64,000 bases of DNA. Origin: Oryzomonas sagensis. Its GTDB lineage: Bacteria > Desulfobacterota > Desulfuromonadia > Geobacterales > Pseudopelobacteraceae. How positions within the stretch are numbered: the first letter of the stretch is position 1; each line of letters begins with the position of its first letter. Positions 29,000 to 32,593 of this stretch are shown piece by piece. The notes below the pieces were generated by a model that saw only the letters and a list, made by a program, of their open reading frames with translations, was not told the origin of the DNA and ran no database searches. Location: contig NZ_VZRA01000001.1 of the NCBI RefSeq assembly GCF_008802355.1, forward strand, positions 1,172,525 through 1,236,524, given 5' to 3'. The position numbers were made by a program, and so were the translations under genes.

Positions 29000-29188
29000 T
29001 CCATAGTTATCGTTCTTAAGAACCGTCGCTGAGGCGCAAGATAAAAAGCGCGGCAGGCAACACGGGGGGAGGGGATACGTCGGGTGAGTTTTTTTCCGTC
29101 TATCCCCTTCATTCCTGGTGACCGGCTTCTCCGTCGCCCCGTCGCTGCGGCGGATTGCCCGCCGCGCAAATCATGGAGAATGGGATAG

Positions 29189-29659
29189 ATGAAGATCGTA
29201 ACCGCCGAACTGTTGCGCCAGCTTTCCGAACAAGCCTGCACCTCCCCCCGTCTGCGCAAGAATCACAACATCCATCGCTGCGACGAATCCCGTTGCCATC
29301 GCCTCCTGAATGCCGTTGAACCGGCCTCGTACATTCGCCCCCACCGTCACCTGGACCCGGAAAAGGATGAGGCCTTCATCCTGATGAACGGCAAGCTGGG
29401 CATTGTCACGTTCGCCGCCGACGGGACCATTGCGGAGACGGTTCTGCTCTCGCGGGACCAGGGCAACCTTGCCGCCGACATCCCCGCGGGCACCTATCAT
29501 ACGGCGGTGAGCCTCGAGCCGGGAACGGTCTTCTACGAGGCCAAGGCCGGGCCTTACCTGCCGCTCGGCGATGCCGAGAAGGCGGCGTGGGCGCCCGGCG
29601 ATGACGAGCCCGGAGCAACGGCGTACCTGGAGCGGCTGCGGGGACTCTTTCCGGGGTGA
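29189..29659 (+). CDS. WbuC-type cupin-fold protein
   Basis: 156 residues. The N-terminal segment (RLRKNHNIHRCDESRCHRLLNAVEPASYIRPHRHLDPEKDEAFILMNGKLG) has the closely spaced His-x-His and Glu that form a cupin metal site, and the middle AADIPAGTYHTAVSLEPGTVFYE is the second cupin motif. The whole matches the WbuC cupin-fold metalloprotein family, first noted in O-antigen clusters but with no proven reaction. A GGAGAAT site precedes the ATG. The next gene starts 13 bp later. Confidence 0.82.
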   Translation: MKIVTAELLRQLSEQACTSPRLRKNHNIHRCDESRCHRLLNAVEPASYIRPHRHLDPEKDEAFILMNGKLGIVTFAADGTIAETVLLSRDQGNLAADIPAGTYHTAVSLEPGTVFYEAKAGPYLPLGDAEKAAWAPGDDEPGATAYLERLRGLFPG

Positions 29660-29672
29660 GGCGGTCACGGCG

Positions 29673-30284
29673 ATGAAGAGGTACGCACTGGCGATCACCC
29701 TGCTGCTCCTGATGGCCGCACCGGCGGTTTCCCAACCGCCGATGCGCCCGTACAGCGGCATCGGCGTGCTGCTCCTGACGACGGAACATGACGAGAGCGG
29801 CGTTCAGCAGGAGCCCCTGTACCTGTACGAGGAACCGGCCGTCCAGCGTATCGGAGCCCTGGACAGCGGCCGGACGCCCCCCTACGAGTGGCTCTTCACG
29901 GGGAACACTTCCGGGGTGCCGCTGATCGTGACGGCCCGTAAGGGGGAGTGGCTGCGGGTGGCCTATGACGATGCGGGCCGCCTGGGGTGGCTGGAACCGC
30001 GGCACCGGGGCGAGGTTCAGCCGTGGAGCGCCTTGCTGAAGGGGAAGCCGTGCCGGTTGCTGCCCGGCCTGCGTAAGCAGTATTACCAGATATTCCGGCA
30101 GCCGGGCAGGATGCCCTTGGCGCTGCCGGCATTGGCGAAGCAGTCGTTCAGGGTTGTCAAGCTGGACGGCGACTGGGCGCTGGCCATGCCGGACCAGAGT
30201 ACGCTCGGCTGGCTGCGCTGGCGGGACGAGGACGGCCGGCTGCTGATCTCCGTGGGAATGGCCCCCGGCCCACAAAAACGTTGA
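29673..30284 (+). CDS. Exported hypothetical protein with SH3-like strand pattern
   Basis: 203 residues; the ATG at 29673 is preferred because a longer in-frame start would overlap the cupin gene and lose the signal peptide (KRYALAITLLLLMAAPAVS). The mature part has repeats of short beta strands with conserved Gly and Trp (GEWLRVAYDDAGRLGWLEPR, GDWALAMPDQSTLGWLRW) that look like two SH3b-type units. No enzyme motif is seen. It probably forms an operon with the cupin gene. Its final codons contain the -35 hexamer for the downstream attenuator promoter. Confidence 0.72.
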   Translation: MKRYALAITLLLLMAAPAVSQPPMRPYSGIGVLLLTTEHDESGVQQEPLYLYEEPAVQRIGALDSGRTPPYEWLFTGNTSGVPLIVTARKGEWLRVAYDDAGRLGWLEPRHRGEVQPWSALLKGKPCRLLPGLRKQYYQIFRQPGRMPLALPALAKQSFRVVKLDGDWALAMPDQSTLGWLRWRDEDGRLLISVGMAPGPQKR

Positions 30285-30310
30285 CGCCGACATGCCGGAT
30301 GTGGTATAGA
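30281..30310 (+). promoter_or_regulatory. Sigma-70 promoter driving the Ala-rich leader
   Basis: TTGACG (30281-30286), an 18-bp spacer and TATAGA (30305-30310). The predicted start point, near 30316-30318, falls only 1-3 bases before the leader ATG at 30319, so the leader mRNA may be almost leaderless. Confidence 0.6.
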
Positions 30311-30318
30311 AAAAACCT

Positions 30319-30408
30319 ATGTTTACTACGATGATTACCGCCATTGCAGCAGCACGAGCTATCAGCGCCGCGGCGAGCGACGCCGCTGGAGTGAGTTCTG
30401 CCCGGTGA
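30319..30408 (+). CDS. Ala-rich leader peptide (29 residues)
   Basis: 29 codons with 11 Ala, including three runs (codons 10-12, 17-19 and 22-23), plus 3 Ile. It has no ribosome-binding site but starts at the predicted mRNA 5' end. It is followed by a transcription terminator and then an aminotransferase gene of the alanine-forming AlaA/AlaT type. The last codons (TCTGCCC, 30397-30403) can pair with GGGCAGA (30442-30448), which overlaps the terminator, so a ribosome stalled on earlier Ala codons would favour an antiterminator while one at the stop codon would allow the terminator. This is the standard logic of amino-acid attenuation. Confidence 0.6.
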   Translation: MFTTMITAIAAARAISAAASDAAGVSSAR

Positions 30409-30435
30409 TCATTGTATGATCAGAATACCTTTACC

Positions 30436-30475
30436 AGCCGTGGGCAGAGAAGCCCGCGGCTTTTTTGTTTTTACG
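30436..30475 (+). terminator. Attenuator-type terminator after the Ala-rich leader
   Basis: AGCCGTGGGC (30436-30445) pairs with GCCCGCGGCT (30452-30461), loop AGAGAA, followed by TTTTTTGTTTTT. Its left arm and loop overlap the competing pairing partner GGGCAGA. A separate hairpin (CGTTTCCG 30491-30498 with CGGAAACG 30516-30523) lies between it and the aminotransferase. Confidence 0.85.
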
Positions 30476-30561
30476 ACGCTCTCGCCGCTCCGTTTCCGGT
30501 CCGGCGGGGGGATAGCGGAAACGATAAGGTGCATGTATCTATATAGTGAGAGGAGACGGCT

Positions 30562-31866
30562 ATGCGTATCGATCTGGTAAGCCCCGGAACGGGGGAGTTG
30601 ACCTACGAGATCCGCAATATTGTCAATGTGGCTGAAAAACTGCAAAAGTACGGCGTGAAGATCAACTGGGAGAATATCGGCGATCCGATCGTCAAGGGGG
30701 AGGTCATCCCTGGCTGGATGAAGGAGATCGTGGCCAATGCGGCCGCGGACGACGCCACCTGGGGCTATTGCCACACCCGCGGCGTACTGGAAACCCGCGA
30801 GTTCATCTGCGACATGACCAACCGGCGCGGGGGGGCCCGGATCACCCCGGAGGACATCATCTTCTTCAACGGCCTGGGGGATGCCATTGCCAAAATCTAT
30901 GGCTGTCTGCGCCCCGAGGCCCGCGTGCTGATGCCGTCCCCCTCCTACACAACCCATACCCTGGGGGAGATCGGCCATGCCCATGCCGCCCCGGCCCTTT
31001 TCCGGCTCAAACCCGAGGAAAACTGGTATCCCGACCTGGATGACCTGCGCAACCATATCAAGTATAATCCCAACATCTGCGCCATCATGATCATCAACCC
31101 CGACAATCCCACCGGCATGGTCTATACCGAGAAGACGCTGCGCGAGATCGTGGCGGTGGCCAAAGAGCACAACCTGTTCATCATTGCCGACGAGGTCTAC
31201 ACGAACATCGTGTATAACGGCGAAACCGCCGTTCCCATCAGCGATGTGATCGGCGACGTCCCGGCCATCTCGTTGCGGGGGATCTCCAAGGAATTCCCCT
31301 GGCCAGGGTCGCGTTGCGGCTGGATCGAGGTGTATAACGGCCACGACGACCCGCAGTTCCAGAAGTACGTCAACCTGATCCTGACCAGCAAGATGAACGA
31401 GGTCTGCTCCACGACCCTGCCCCAGACCGTCATCCCCGCCATCATGCAGCATGCCGGCTACGCCGGGTACCTGGCGGAGCGCATCGCCAGCTACGAGAAG
31501 ATGAGCAACATCACCTACGATTTTCTCAAAGAGGTGCCCCAACTCCAGGTCAACCGCACCAACGGCGCATTCTACATGGCCGTGGCGTTCAAGGCGGGGC
31601 TCTTGACCAACCGCCAGTCGATCCCCATCGCCAACAGCGAGGTGCGCGACCTGGTAAACGGCCTGGTCAACCAGCCCGGCGTCTCCCCGGACAAGCGTTT
31701 CGTCTACCACATCCTCGCGGCGACCGGCATCTGCGTGGTGCCGCTCTCCTCGTTCTCCACACCGTTGCAGGGCTTCCGCGTCACCCTGCTGGAGAAGGAC
31801 GAGAACGAGTGCCGCCGGATCTACAGCACGCTGGCGGAGAAGATCGGCGAATACCTGGCGTCGTAA
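30562..31866 (+). CDS. Pyridoxal-phosphate aminotransferase, AlaA/AlaT-like
   Basis: 434 residues, class I/II fold type I aminotransferase. The PLP Asp region is NPDNPTGMVY near residue 178, the cofactor-linked Lys is in SLRGISKEFPWPGSRCGW near residue 243, and the family-typical ADEVYTNIVY lies between them. Close motifs occur in alanine and broad-specificity branched-chain aminotransferases (AlaA, AlaT, AvtA). The Ala-rich attenuator in front argues for an alanine-producing role: pyruvate plus glutamate to alanine. GAGAGGAG precedes the ATG. A terminator follows at 31891. Confidence 0.8.
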   Translation: MRIDLVSPGTGELTYEIRNIVNVAEKLQKYGVKINWENIGDPIVKGEVIPGWMKEIVANAAADDATWGYCHTRGVLETREFICDMTNRRGGARITPEDIIFFNGLGDAIAKIYGCLRPEARVLMPSPSYTTHTLGEIGHAHAAPALFRLKPEENWYPDLDDLRNHIKYNPNICAIMIINPDNPTGMVYTEKTLREIVAVAKEHNLFIIADEVYTNIVYNGETAVPISDVIGDVPAISLRGISKEFPWPGSRCGWIEVYNGHDDPQFQKYVNLILTSKMNEVCSTTLPQTVIPAIMQHAGYAGYLAERIASYEKMSNITYDFLKEVPQLQVNRTNGAFYMAVAFKAGLLTNRQSIPIANSEVRDLVNGLVNQPGVSPDKRFVYHILAATGICVVPLSSFSTPLQGFRVTLLEKDENECRRIYSTLAEKIGEYLAS

Positions 31867-31890
31867 TTTTCTGTAAATTCGCAAGTTGTC

Positions 31891-31928
31891 ACGGGGAAGG
31901 GCTCGGGGAGTCTTTCCCCGTTTTGTTT
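31891..31928 (+). terminator. Intrinsic terminator of the aminotransferase gene
   Basis: ACGGGGAA (31891-31898) pairs with TTCCCCGT (31914-31921), followed by TTTGTTTT. Confidence 0.75.
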
Positions 31929-32068
31929 TGATCTTTTGTGGGGCGAGGCTAGGAGCCAAGGGGAGGATTTTGTGTAACGTCAGGTTCTGTGGTATATAAA
32001 GCGATCATGACGTGTCACTTAATATCAAATTTTGAAAAATTGAGAGCGAGACGGGGTGAGGCTATCTC

Positions 32069-32593
32069 ATGAACGACAAACCGAAAATCGTCATCATCGC
32101 CGGACCCAACGGAGCAGGTAAAACAACCTTTGCCCGTGAATTCCTCCCCCATGAGGCGAACTGCCCCGATTTCATCAATGCCGACCTGATTGCCGCAGGG
32201 CTTTCGCCGTTCAGACCGGAAGCGGCAGCATTTCGGGCCGGCCGTCTGATGCTGGAAGAGATGCACGAGAAAATCCTCAACAACAAGAGCTTTGCCTTTG
32301 AGACAACGCTGAGCGGCCGCACGTATGTAAAGCTGCTGCGGGAATGTCGCAATCGGGGCTACCATGTTTTGCTGGTCTTTTTAAGCCTGCCGACGGATGA
32401 CATGGCGGTGGCGCGGGTAGCGGCCCGTGTGGCGCAAGGGGGCCACAACGTGCCGGAGGCCGATATCCGCAGACGATTCGGCGTGGGGCTGAAAAACTTC
32501 CATGAAGTTTACAAGGAGGCCGTTGATGGATGGACGATGTACGACAACTCTGGTAATATACCCAGAGTGATCGAGCGAGGAGAAAACAGATGA
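32069..32593 (+). CDS. Zeta-toxin-like P-loop kinase
   Basis: 174 residues. Walker A AGPNGAGKTTFARE at residues 11-24; INADLIAAGLSPF and FAFETTLSG match zeta-like ATPases (COG4185), whose members include UDP-GlcNAc-phosphorylating toxins. The sequence is compact and lacks the long C-terminal lid of epsilon/zeta plasmid toxins. It overlaps the next small gene by 4 bp (ATGA). If the pair is a toxin-antitoxin system, toxin comes first, unlike epsilon/zeta. It could instead be a housekeeping kinase with a small regulator. Confidence 0.8.
   Translation: MNDKPKIVIIAGPNGAGKTTFAREFLPHEANCPDFINADLIAAGLSPFRPEAAAFRAGRLMLEEMHEKILNNKSFAFETTLSGRTYVKLLRECRNRGYHVLLVFLSLPTDDMAVARVAARVAQGGHNVPEADIRRRFGVGLKNFHEVYKEAVDGWTMYDNSGNIPRVIERGENR

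Follow-up and report, generated by a model that had tools for sequence, protein, structure and literature searches.

A very probable alanine-codon leader element, likely a transcription attenuator, upstream of a PRK06855 aminotransferase gene in Oryzomonas sagensis and across its class

Analysis of a 64,000-nucleotide stretch of the Oryzomonas sagensis genome (the window) revealed a short alanine-rich reading frame and an intrinsic terminator between a candidate promoter and an aminotransferase gene. Comparison with relatives indicates that this alanine-codon element is very probably real, and it is highly likely to act as a ribosome-mediated transcription attenuator that senses charged tRNA-Ala. 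Ribosome-mediated attenuators are known for the His, Trp, Leu, Thr, Phe, and Ilv operons in Proteobacteria; the mechanism proposed here is the textbook one, and what would be new is alanine as the amino acid, on a probable biosynthetic gene, in a new family of elements. Attenuation had been put forward in a sequence-only reading of the locus and was supported by its anatomy, its conservation, the leader frame, mutually exclusive RNA pairings, and covariation in relatives. The parts of the locus in the window are as follows.

30281 to 30310, plus strand: candidate promoter, with the -35 box TTGACG at 30281-30286, an 18-nt spacer, and the extended -10 TGG-TATAGA TGGTATAGA at 30302-30310
30319 to 30408, plus strand: leader peptide ORF MFTTMITAIAAARAISAAASDAAGVSSAR of 29 codons including 11 Ala, probably leaderless, with conserved frame and Ala positions
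30327 to 30340, plus strand: 5' strand of the lock (start-stop) helix, forming 14 pairs with 30403-30416
30346 to 30354, plus strand: first Ala run, GCA GCA GCA at codons 10-12, with CGA (30355-30357) directly after
30349 to 30352, plus strand: region 1, GCAG, which pairs with CTGC at 30398-30401
30367 to 30387, plus strand: second and third Ala runs (codons 17-19 and 22-23), containing the internal hairpin H1 (30370-30375 with 30381-30386)
30397 to 30406, plus strand: region 2, the antiterminator 5' strand, in which TCTGCCC pairs with 30442-30448 and GGT (30404-30406) with GCC (30437-30439)
30406 to 30422, plus strand: small hairpin TGATCAT/ATGATCA, which begins at the leader stop codon and is enclosed by the antiterminator
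30436 to 30470, plus strand: intrinsic terminator and T-rich tract, the stem at 30436-30461 providing arms 3 and 4
30551 to 30555, plus strand: Shine-Dalgarno-like AGGAG of the structural gene, from its sequence
30562 to 31866, plus strand: aminotransferase of 434 aa, NCBIfam NF005334 (PRK06855) and Pfam Aminotran_1_2

The coordinates of the sequence-only reading were right, including the leader at 30319-30408 with Ala at 11 of 29 codons in runs at codons 10-12, 17-19, and 22-23, and the complementarity it had noted between TCTGCCC (30397-30403) and GGGCAGA (30442-30448) was confirmed, with a surrounding duplex of -16.4 kcal/mol. The terminator had been described as a perfect 10-bp G+C-rich stem, which held for the 10 pairs at 30436-30461, the eight G-C pairs among them, and the T tract, but not for perfection as one pair is a G.U wobble (30441-30456). 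The leader ATG lies 8 nt past the -10 box and the aminotransferase starts 100 nt past the terminator stem. A generic terminator scan of the stretch found one terminator compared to 1.0 expected in shuffled sequences (i.e., not above chance), and a generic promoter scan of the stretch did not call the candidate promoter. As the terminator alone was no better than chance expectation, the case for the element depends on its relatives.

An orthologue of the aminotransferase was identified in 73 of 76 genomes of the window's family (E ≤ 1e-150) and in 250 of 277 genomes of the class (E ≤ 1e-120). The order is taken here to be the Geobacterales; f1, f2, g21, and similar labels are the family and genus labels of the search tool, with g21 presumably Geomonas. 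From the 76 family matches, 74 upstream stretches were read, leaving out G014, which has a match to the model R1 (below) before its gene, and G041, which has a weak match only, on another contig. In 42 of the 74 stretches there was a short ORF encoding, in frame, an Arg residue within an Ala-rich motif. The 32 stretches lacking the module include L041, which holds just 41 nt upstream, and among stretches longer than 41 nt the leader was absent from 31 of 73. For 30 of these 32 stretches, the distance between the end of the preceding ORF and the gene was measurable and ranged from 14 to 115 nt, which suggests loss of the module by deletion and not by decay. Second copies of the aminotransferase gene at L277 (G094), L097 (G067), and L032 (G055) had no leader in the stretch read, the other copy having one.

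A covariance model built from the 42 family leaders (R1) matched 89 of 141 order genomes at E ≤ 0.01, and its weak matches are probably chance hits. Of 40 R1 regions fetched, 39 of them from other families, the orthologue lay downstream in 39 (38 of 39 for the other families), and as these regions were found by the model the fractions give no rate of presence. The R1 match at L173 (G077) was false and does not precede the orthologue. R1 listed ten places in the window's genome (G000), and the three best besides the true one (35.9, 24.6, and 18.3 bits) were rejected as second copies, being gene ends beside unrelated terminators. In G076 (L172, L284), a gene of ~1 kb that appeared methyltransferase-like by eye sits between the Ala leader and the aminotransferase. 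The g21 genus comprises 19 genomes, of which 12 were read together with G098 and G131, and 14 of 14 displayed an Ala-run ORF of type MYTNNVTSRGTVHAAAAARPF with a terminator-like repeat; R1 misses leaders of this type, and their layout differs. The leader was absent from three of three f2 orthologue upstream regions.

Judged from sequence, the element is widespread across the class and missing in some lineages. It was present in all nine further class families sampled, at very different rates, and 12 of the 13 that scored best among the listed orthologues from other orders of the class have it, the exception being L291. Three f6 genomes (L253-L255) with the element were found by R1. Loci in f5, f122, and f114 were judged by eye from the best Ala-rich ORF. 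In f5, the element occurred at 25 of 26 loci with enough upstream DNA (L303 and L306, with 55 nt, were excluded), the exception being L325 with a terminator-like repeat at the edge of the stretch, and for four of the 25 (L302, L314, L316, L319) the scan gave no terminator between leader and gene. The f122 loci included seven of 12 with a three-Ala run, four more with Ala pairs only, and L332 with none, and the element was present at two of ten f114 loci (L343, L344) and absent from the other eight, excluding the partial match L350. By eye, L262, an orthologue with 56% identity from a different class of the phylum, was preceded by an Ala-rich stretch and a repeat resembling a terminator, and no leader was seen by eye in 330 nt before homologues in two Calditerrivibrio records and one spirochaete record. 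Among records of cultured relatives, those of Oryzomonas japonica and Trichlorobacter thiogenes contain the leader, which was absent from the 330 nt read for Pelotalea chapellei. Conservation lifts the element above chance (42/74 in the family, 39/40 model-found regions, 14/14 of g21 type, and the class-level cases), the genome counts not being independent events. By eye, five phylum-level R1 matches (L256, L257, L258, L259, and L265) have short leaders in which Tyr/Phe codons form runs, with G+C-rich terminator-like repeats behind them, and these are probably aromatic amino-acid attenuators.

The aminotransferase had its best family match to PRK06855 (NF005334, "pyridoxal phosphate-dependent aminotransferase"; E 2e-221, 735 bits against a cut-off of 443), to which NCBIfam gives no substrate, followed by the alanine aminotransferase family PRK08363 (E 1.1e-57, 196 bits, cut-off 534). 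The best two solved structures by sequence were 1xi9 (putative transaminase) and 4cvq (glutamate-pyruvate aminotransferase AlaA, E 3.3e-39), and the protein is 99% identical to its Oryzomonas japonica counterpart. The gene had earlier been described as AlaA/AlaT-like; its nearest named relatives are alanine aminotransferases (PRK08363 and 4cvq), and its best-matching family lacks an assigned substrate. No match to alanine dehydrogenase TIGR00518 was found in the window's genome at E ≤ 0.001, this family being above cut-off in eight of 40 family genomes, and matches at E ≤ 1e-60 of the genome's four more distant aminotransferase-fold proteins included no alanine aminotransferase. The enzyme would make alanine, for which the leader itself is the strongest hint. 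A Zeta-toxin/AAA_33-like ORF lies at 32069-32593, ~200 bases downstream of the aminotransferase.

Translation of the leader was approached through 80 f1-f4 leaders identified from nucleotide patterns (CGAG[CT]T, a stretch like H1, TTGAC, and TGnTA), with a promoter spacer of 17 or 18 nt; L080 is missing from this promoter set as its contig holds no promoter. The first ATG and the CGA codon were 27, 30, 33, 36, 39, or 42 nt apart in 78 of the 80, and in the two exceptions a second ATG, 8 nt past the -10, brings the frame back. Such length steps of three are what translation of the leader demands. Codons were counted after the CGA in 95 of 96 leaders (L093 was dropped and the 14 g21-type leaders were left out), giving Ala at position +1 in 93, at each of +4, +5, and +6 in 94, and at +9 and +10 in 82 and 80, respectively, such that the supposition of conserved Ala runs survived the comparison. 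Within the variable stretch from the ATG to the motif, Ala accounted for 123 of 905 codons in frame versus 12 and 21 of 810 in the two alternative frames, in leaders that are related rather than independent and in a stretch part of which can pair with the stop region. Mean entropy in f1-f4 was 0.67, 0.67, and 0.92 for the three codon positions. Frame and Ala conservation point to translation of this short ORF, which is rich in codons of the presumed product amino acid. A gap of one base in the H1 loop puts L160 and L169 out of frame beyond the second Ala run, and in both a stop codon still occurs near the usual place.

The Arg codon after the first Ala run was CGA in 42 of 42 family leaders, which had been chosen by their peptide motif and not by this codon. 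This invariance would suit a leader that senses some other signal, such as the CGA codon itself, a nascent peptide that induces stalling, or slower translation in general, with the Ala codons merely tolerated or structural; some of them do lie inside the G+C-rich H1, and their wobble base is fixed at +1 and +5 in f1-f4. Such a signal is nevertheless unlikely, since the in-frame enrichment of Ala extends to the variable N-terminal part, Ala codons +4 (entropy 1.37) and +6 (0.73) differ in their wobble base among leaders, longer Ala runs are written in different letters outside the order, and the nearest named relatives of the downstream enzyme are alanine aminotransferases.

In 76 of 80 leaders, 6-9 nt separate the -10 from the first ATG, and in the remaining four another ATG is found at 8 or 9 nt. 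This spacing of the start codon suggests a leaderless start, and at the 8 nt observed in the window there would be no room for a ribosome-binding site if transcription begins at the usual distance. The leader mRNA is probably leaderless in the window's order, beginning at the AUG or a few bases upstream of it, and in the window the transcript start is predicted at the leader ATG at 30319 or a few bases 5' of it. The apparent lack of a ribosome-binding site remarked upon previously thus goes with a fixed promoter-to-ATG distance in the order. By eye, in three leaders outside the order (L287, L290, L292) the promoter and the ATG are much further apart and a GGAG- or GGGGA-like stretch precedes the ATG and, as these leaders apparently possess a ribosome-binding site, the leaderless layout may be derived in this order. 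Leader peptides on leaderless transcripts are also described for the Streptomyces leu, trp, and ilv leaders (available text of PMC8079986), and in Sinorhizobium meliloti the trpL transcript has the ATG of the leader peptide as its 5' end (available text of PMC7298713). The latter resembles the present leader in the predicted transcript 5' end at the leader ATG, and differs in being a Trp leader before trpE(G), i.e., a different gene and peptide (same source).

The likeness of this start to that of rnTrpL, with its 5' end at the trpL ATG (PMC7298713, available text), also brings in the alternative that the leader RNA or peptide acts in trans as in the Sinorhizobium rnTrpL/peTrpL pair, with or without attenuation. 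This would be compatible with attenuation and is very unlikely, as in one f3 genus (L143, L146, L150, L171) the stop has moved up to the end of H1 and the peptide ends there, while GCCCGC or ACCCGC of region 2 and its pairing with the terminator are kept downstream.

Consensus folding of the whole alignment of the 42 family leaders with RNAalifold returned the 1:2 pairing, H1, and the terminator. After removal of the right arm, the 2:3 antiterminator appeared in alignment segments starting at columns 1, 17, and 45, and the segment from column 30 (30-108) gave another fold with no antiterminator. In the termination structure, 99.0% of the terminator cells, 97.6% of H1, and 85.7% of 1:2 were paired (region 1:2 having just four contiguous pairs in the window), and the covariation score of 0.158 was reached by none of 500 shuffles. 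Several helices and strong nucleotide conservation could also belong to a metabolite riboswitch or protein-binding leader whose conserved letters are open in one frame by accident. That is highly improbable given that the length varies in threes with the start codon kept, that Ala is retained though some wobble bases vary, and that positions 29000-32500 gave no match at E ≤ 1 to any of 4227 Rfam families.

The antiterminator paired in 89.0% of cells in the window's family and, counted together with H1, displayed no covariation there, the paired-cell value being reached in 190 and the score in 212 of 500 shuffles. Among 34 of the 38 f2-f4 leaders (L143, L146, L150, and L171 left out), 91.2% of the antiterminator cells were paired and the covariation score of 0.192 was reached in none of 500 shuffles. 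Columns 42/108 of this alignment held A-U in 10 leaders, G-C in 10, G-U in five, and no pair in nine of 34; columns 41/109 were unpaired in nine of 34; and columns 52/98 held C-G in 31 and U-A in three. Two less clear measures were the both-side changes (reached in 31/500 shuffles) and the further pair types (342/500), and slid controls were far lower in paired cells and score. The f2-f4 terminator was paired in 99.7% of cells, and in 98.4% when combined with H1 (0/500 shuffles). Conservation of the antiterminator in relatives, as anticipated by the sequence-only reading, was hence borne out by compensatory changes in f2-f4 but not by covariation in the window's own family.

A generic test of duplex energy between region 2 and the terminator arm, in a set that leaves out the 14 g21-type leaders and in which the L093 segment began too early, gave an own pairing better than the shuffled mean in 83 of 94 leaders, within the best 5% in 27, and better than the cross-lineage mean in 60. 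Own duplexes averaged -18.9 versus -13.8 for shuffled ones in f2 and f4, and -17.2 versus -12.3 (shuffled) and -13.4 (cross-lineage) outside the order; the test was weak in f1 (own -15.2 vs. cross-lineage -15.5) and f3 (-15.0 vs. -14.0). Owing to this weakness, the pairing argument rests on the position-wise counts. Outside the order the letters differ, yet most leader ends match their own terminator arm, as in L295 (13 pairs, one mismatch), with weak matches in L289 and L294. The stem could instead be an insulator or simply terminate the gene before it, the aminotransferase being transcribed from a start downstream. This would agree with the 100 nt between stem and gene and with the roughly one terminator expected by chance, and is highly improbable because a promoter of fixed geometry precedes the leader and the terminator left arm covaries with the leader end in f2-f4.

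Folding of the window RNA with an assumed ribosome extent gave the antiterminator when the stretch under a ribosome stalled on the first or second Ala run was withheld from pairing and the RNA ended in the terminator loop, and the terminator when the ribosome was placed at the stop codon. Mutually exclusive structures, as expected from the alternative pairings proposed earlier, were therefore seen in the window. With the U tract included, the terminator was the minimum-energy fold even with the stalled-ribosome stretch withheld, and since it wins energetically once its right arm exists, antitermination must rest on timing, with the antiterminator forming first.

A further pairing beyond the sequence-only reading is the lock helix, in which codons 3-8 pair with the ORF end and the bases after it (14 pairs, 30327-30340 with 30403-30416). 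For 22 of 42 family leaders, the own pairing ranked in the top 5% relative to mononucleotide shuffles, compared to 4 of 42 for control segments, and it was stronger than the cross-genus mean in 34 of 42 compared to 21 of 42 for the control; it was weaker in f2-f4 (8/38 vs. 3/38 for the control). The stop region was also able to pair with the stretch before the terminator in 11 of 42 family and 6 of 38 f2-f4 leaders. The lock helix fits a protector that would keep termination as the default without a ribosome.

From these features we infer the start site, ribosome stalling, read-through, and enzyme product of the attenuator as follows. RNA polymerase would start at or next to the leader AUG, such that a ribosome begins on the 5' end itself. 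With ample Ala-tRNA, the ribosome would reach the stop codon (30406-30408) and cover region 2 (30397-30406), allowing the terminator at 30436-30461 to form. When Ala-tRNA is short, the ribosome would stall in the first or second Ala run and leave region 2 free to pair with the left arm and loop of the terminator (30437-30439 and 30442-30448) before the right arm is made, and transcription would then proceed into the aminotransferase that presumably makes alanine. In the absence of a ribosome, the lock helix (30327-30340 with 30403-30416) and the 1:2 pairing would hold region 2, leaving termination as the default. A tentative extension, which is rather doubtful, is a two-input switch in which termination is the default unless a ribosome starts on the fresh 5' end, the gene thereby reporting on tRNA-Ala charging as well as on the cell's ability to initiate on leaderless mRNA.

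The general mechanism of ribosome-mediated attenuation is set out in the available text of PMC1183508 and PMC2965389. The present element shares with the His, Trp, Leu, Thr, Phe, and Ilv attenuators a leader rich in the presumed product amino acid, the 2:3 and 3:4 pairings along with a putative 1:2 pairing, an intrinsic terminator, and a probable biosynthetic gene, and differs from them in alanine, in the aminotransferase directly behind, and in the probably leaderless start in the window's order. The nearest alanine case in print is AlaL before alaS in Streptomyces lividans, with six Ala among 22 residues, which is listed as an attenuator of a type not described before according to its authors (PMC8079986, available text). 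AlaL is likewise an alanine-rich leader peptide but, in the text available, concerns Streptomyces, an aminoacyl-tRNA synthetase gene, a different peptide, and one RNA-seq case described with neither comparative nor mutational tests (PMC8079986). The sequence-only reading named no alanine attenuator and is corrected on this point by AlaL (PMC8079986, available text). No alanine attenuator on a biosynthetic gene was found in the open-access literature searched, nor in Rfam. The aspC motif SRC-45-1 also precedes a putative amino acid aminotransferase (PMC11109978, available text) and, compared by description only, is unlike the present element in its three-stem junction, few conserved letters, and position immediately before the start codon (PMC11109978, available text).

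The attenuator would add alanine, on a probable biosynthetic gene and with comparative support across a bacterial class, to the amino acids under leader-peptide attenuation, and could enter Rfam as a family. It gives the PRK06855 aminotransferases a testable function in alanine formation. If the two-input reading were true, this would be a distinct attenuation layout, possibly derived in the order from leaders lying further from the promoter with an apparent ribosome-binding site. The many natural leaders, whose peptides are probably translated from leaderless mRNAs, would also allow the choice of start site and attenuation to be studied jointly.
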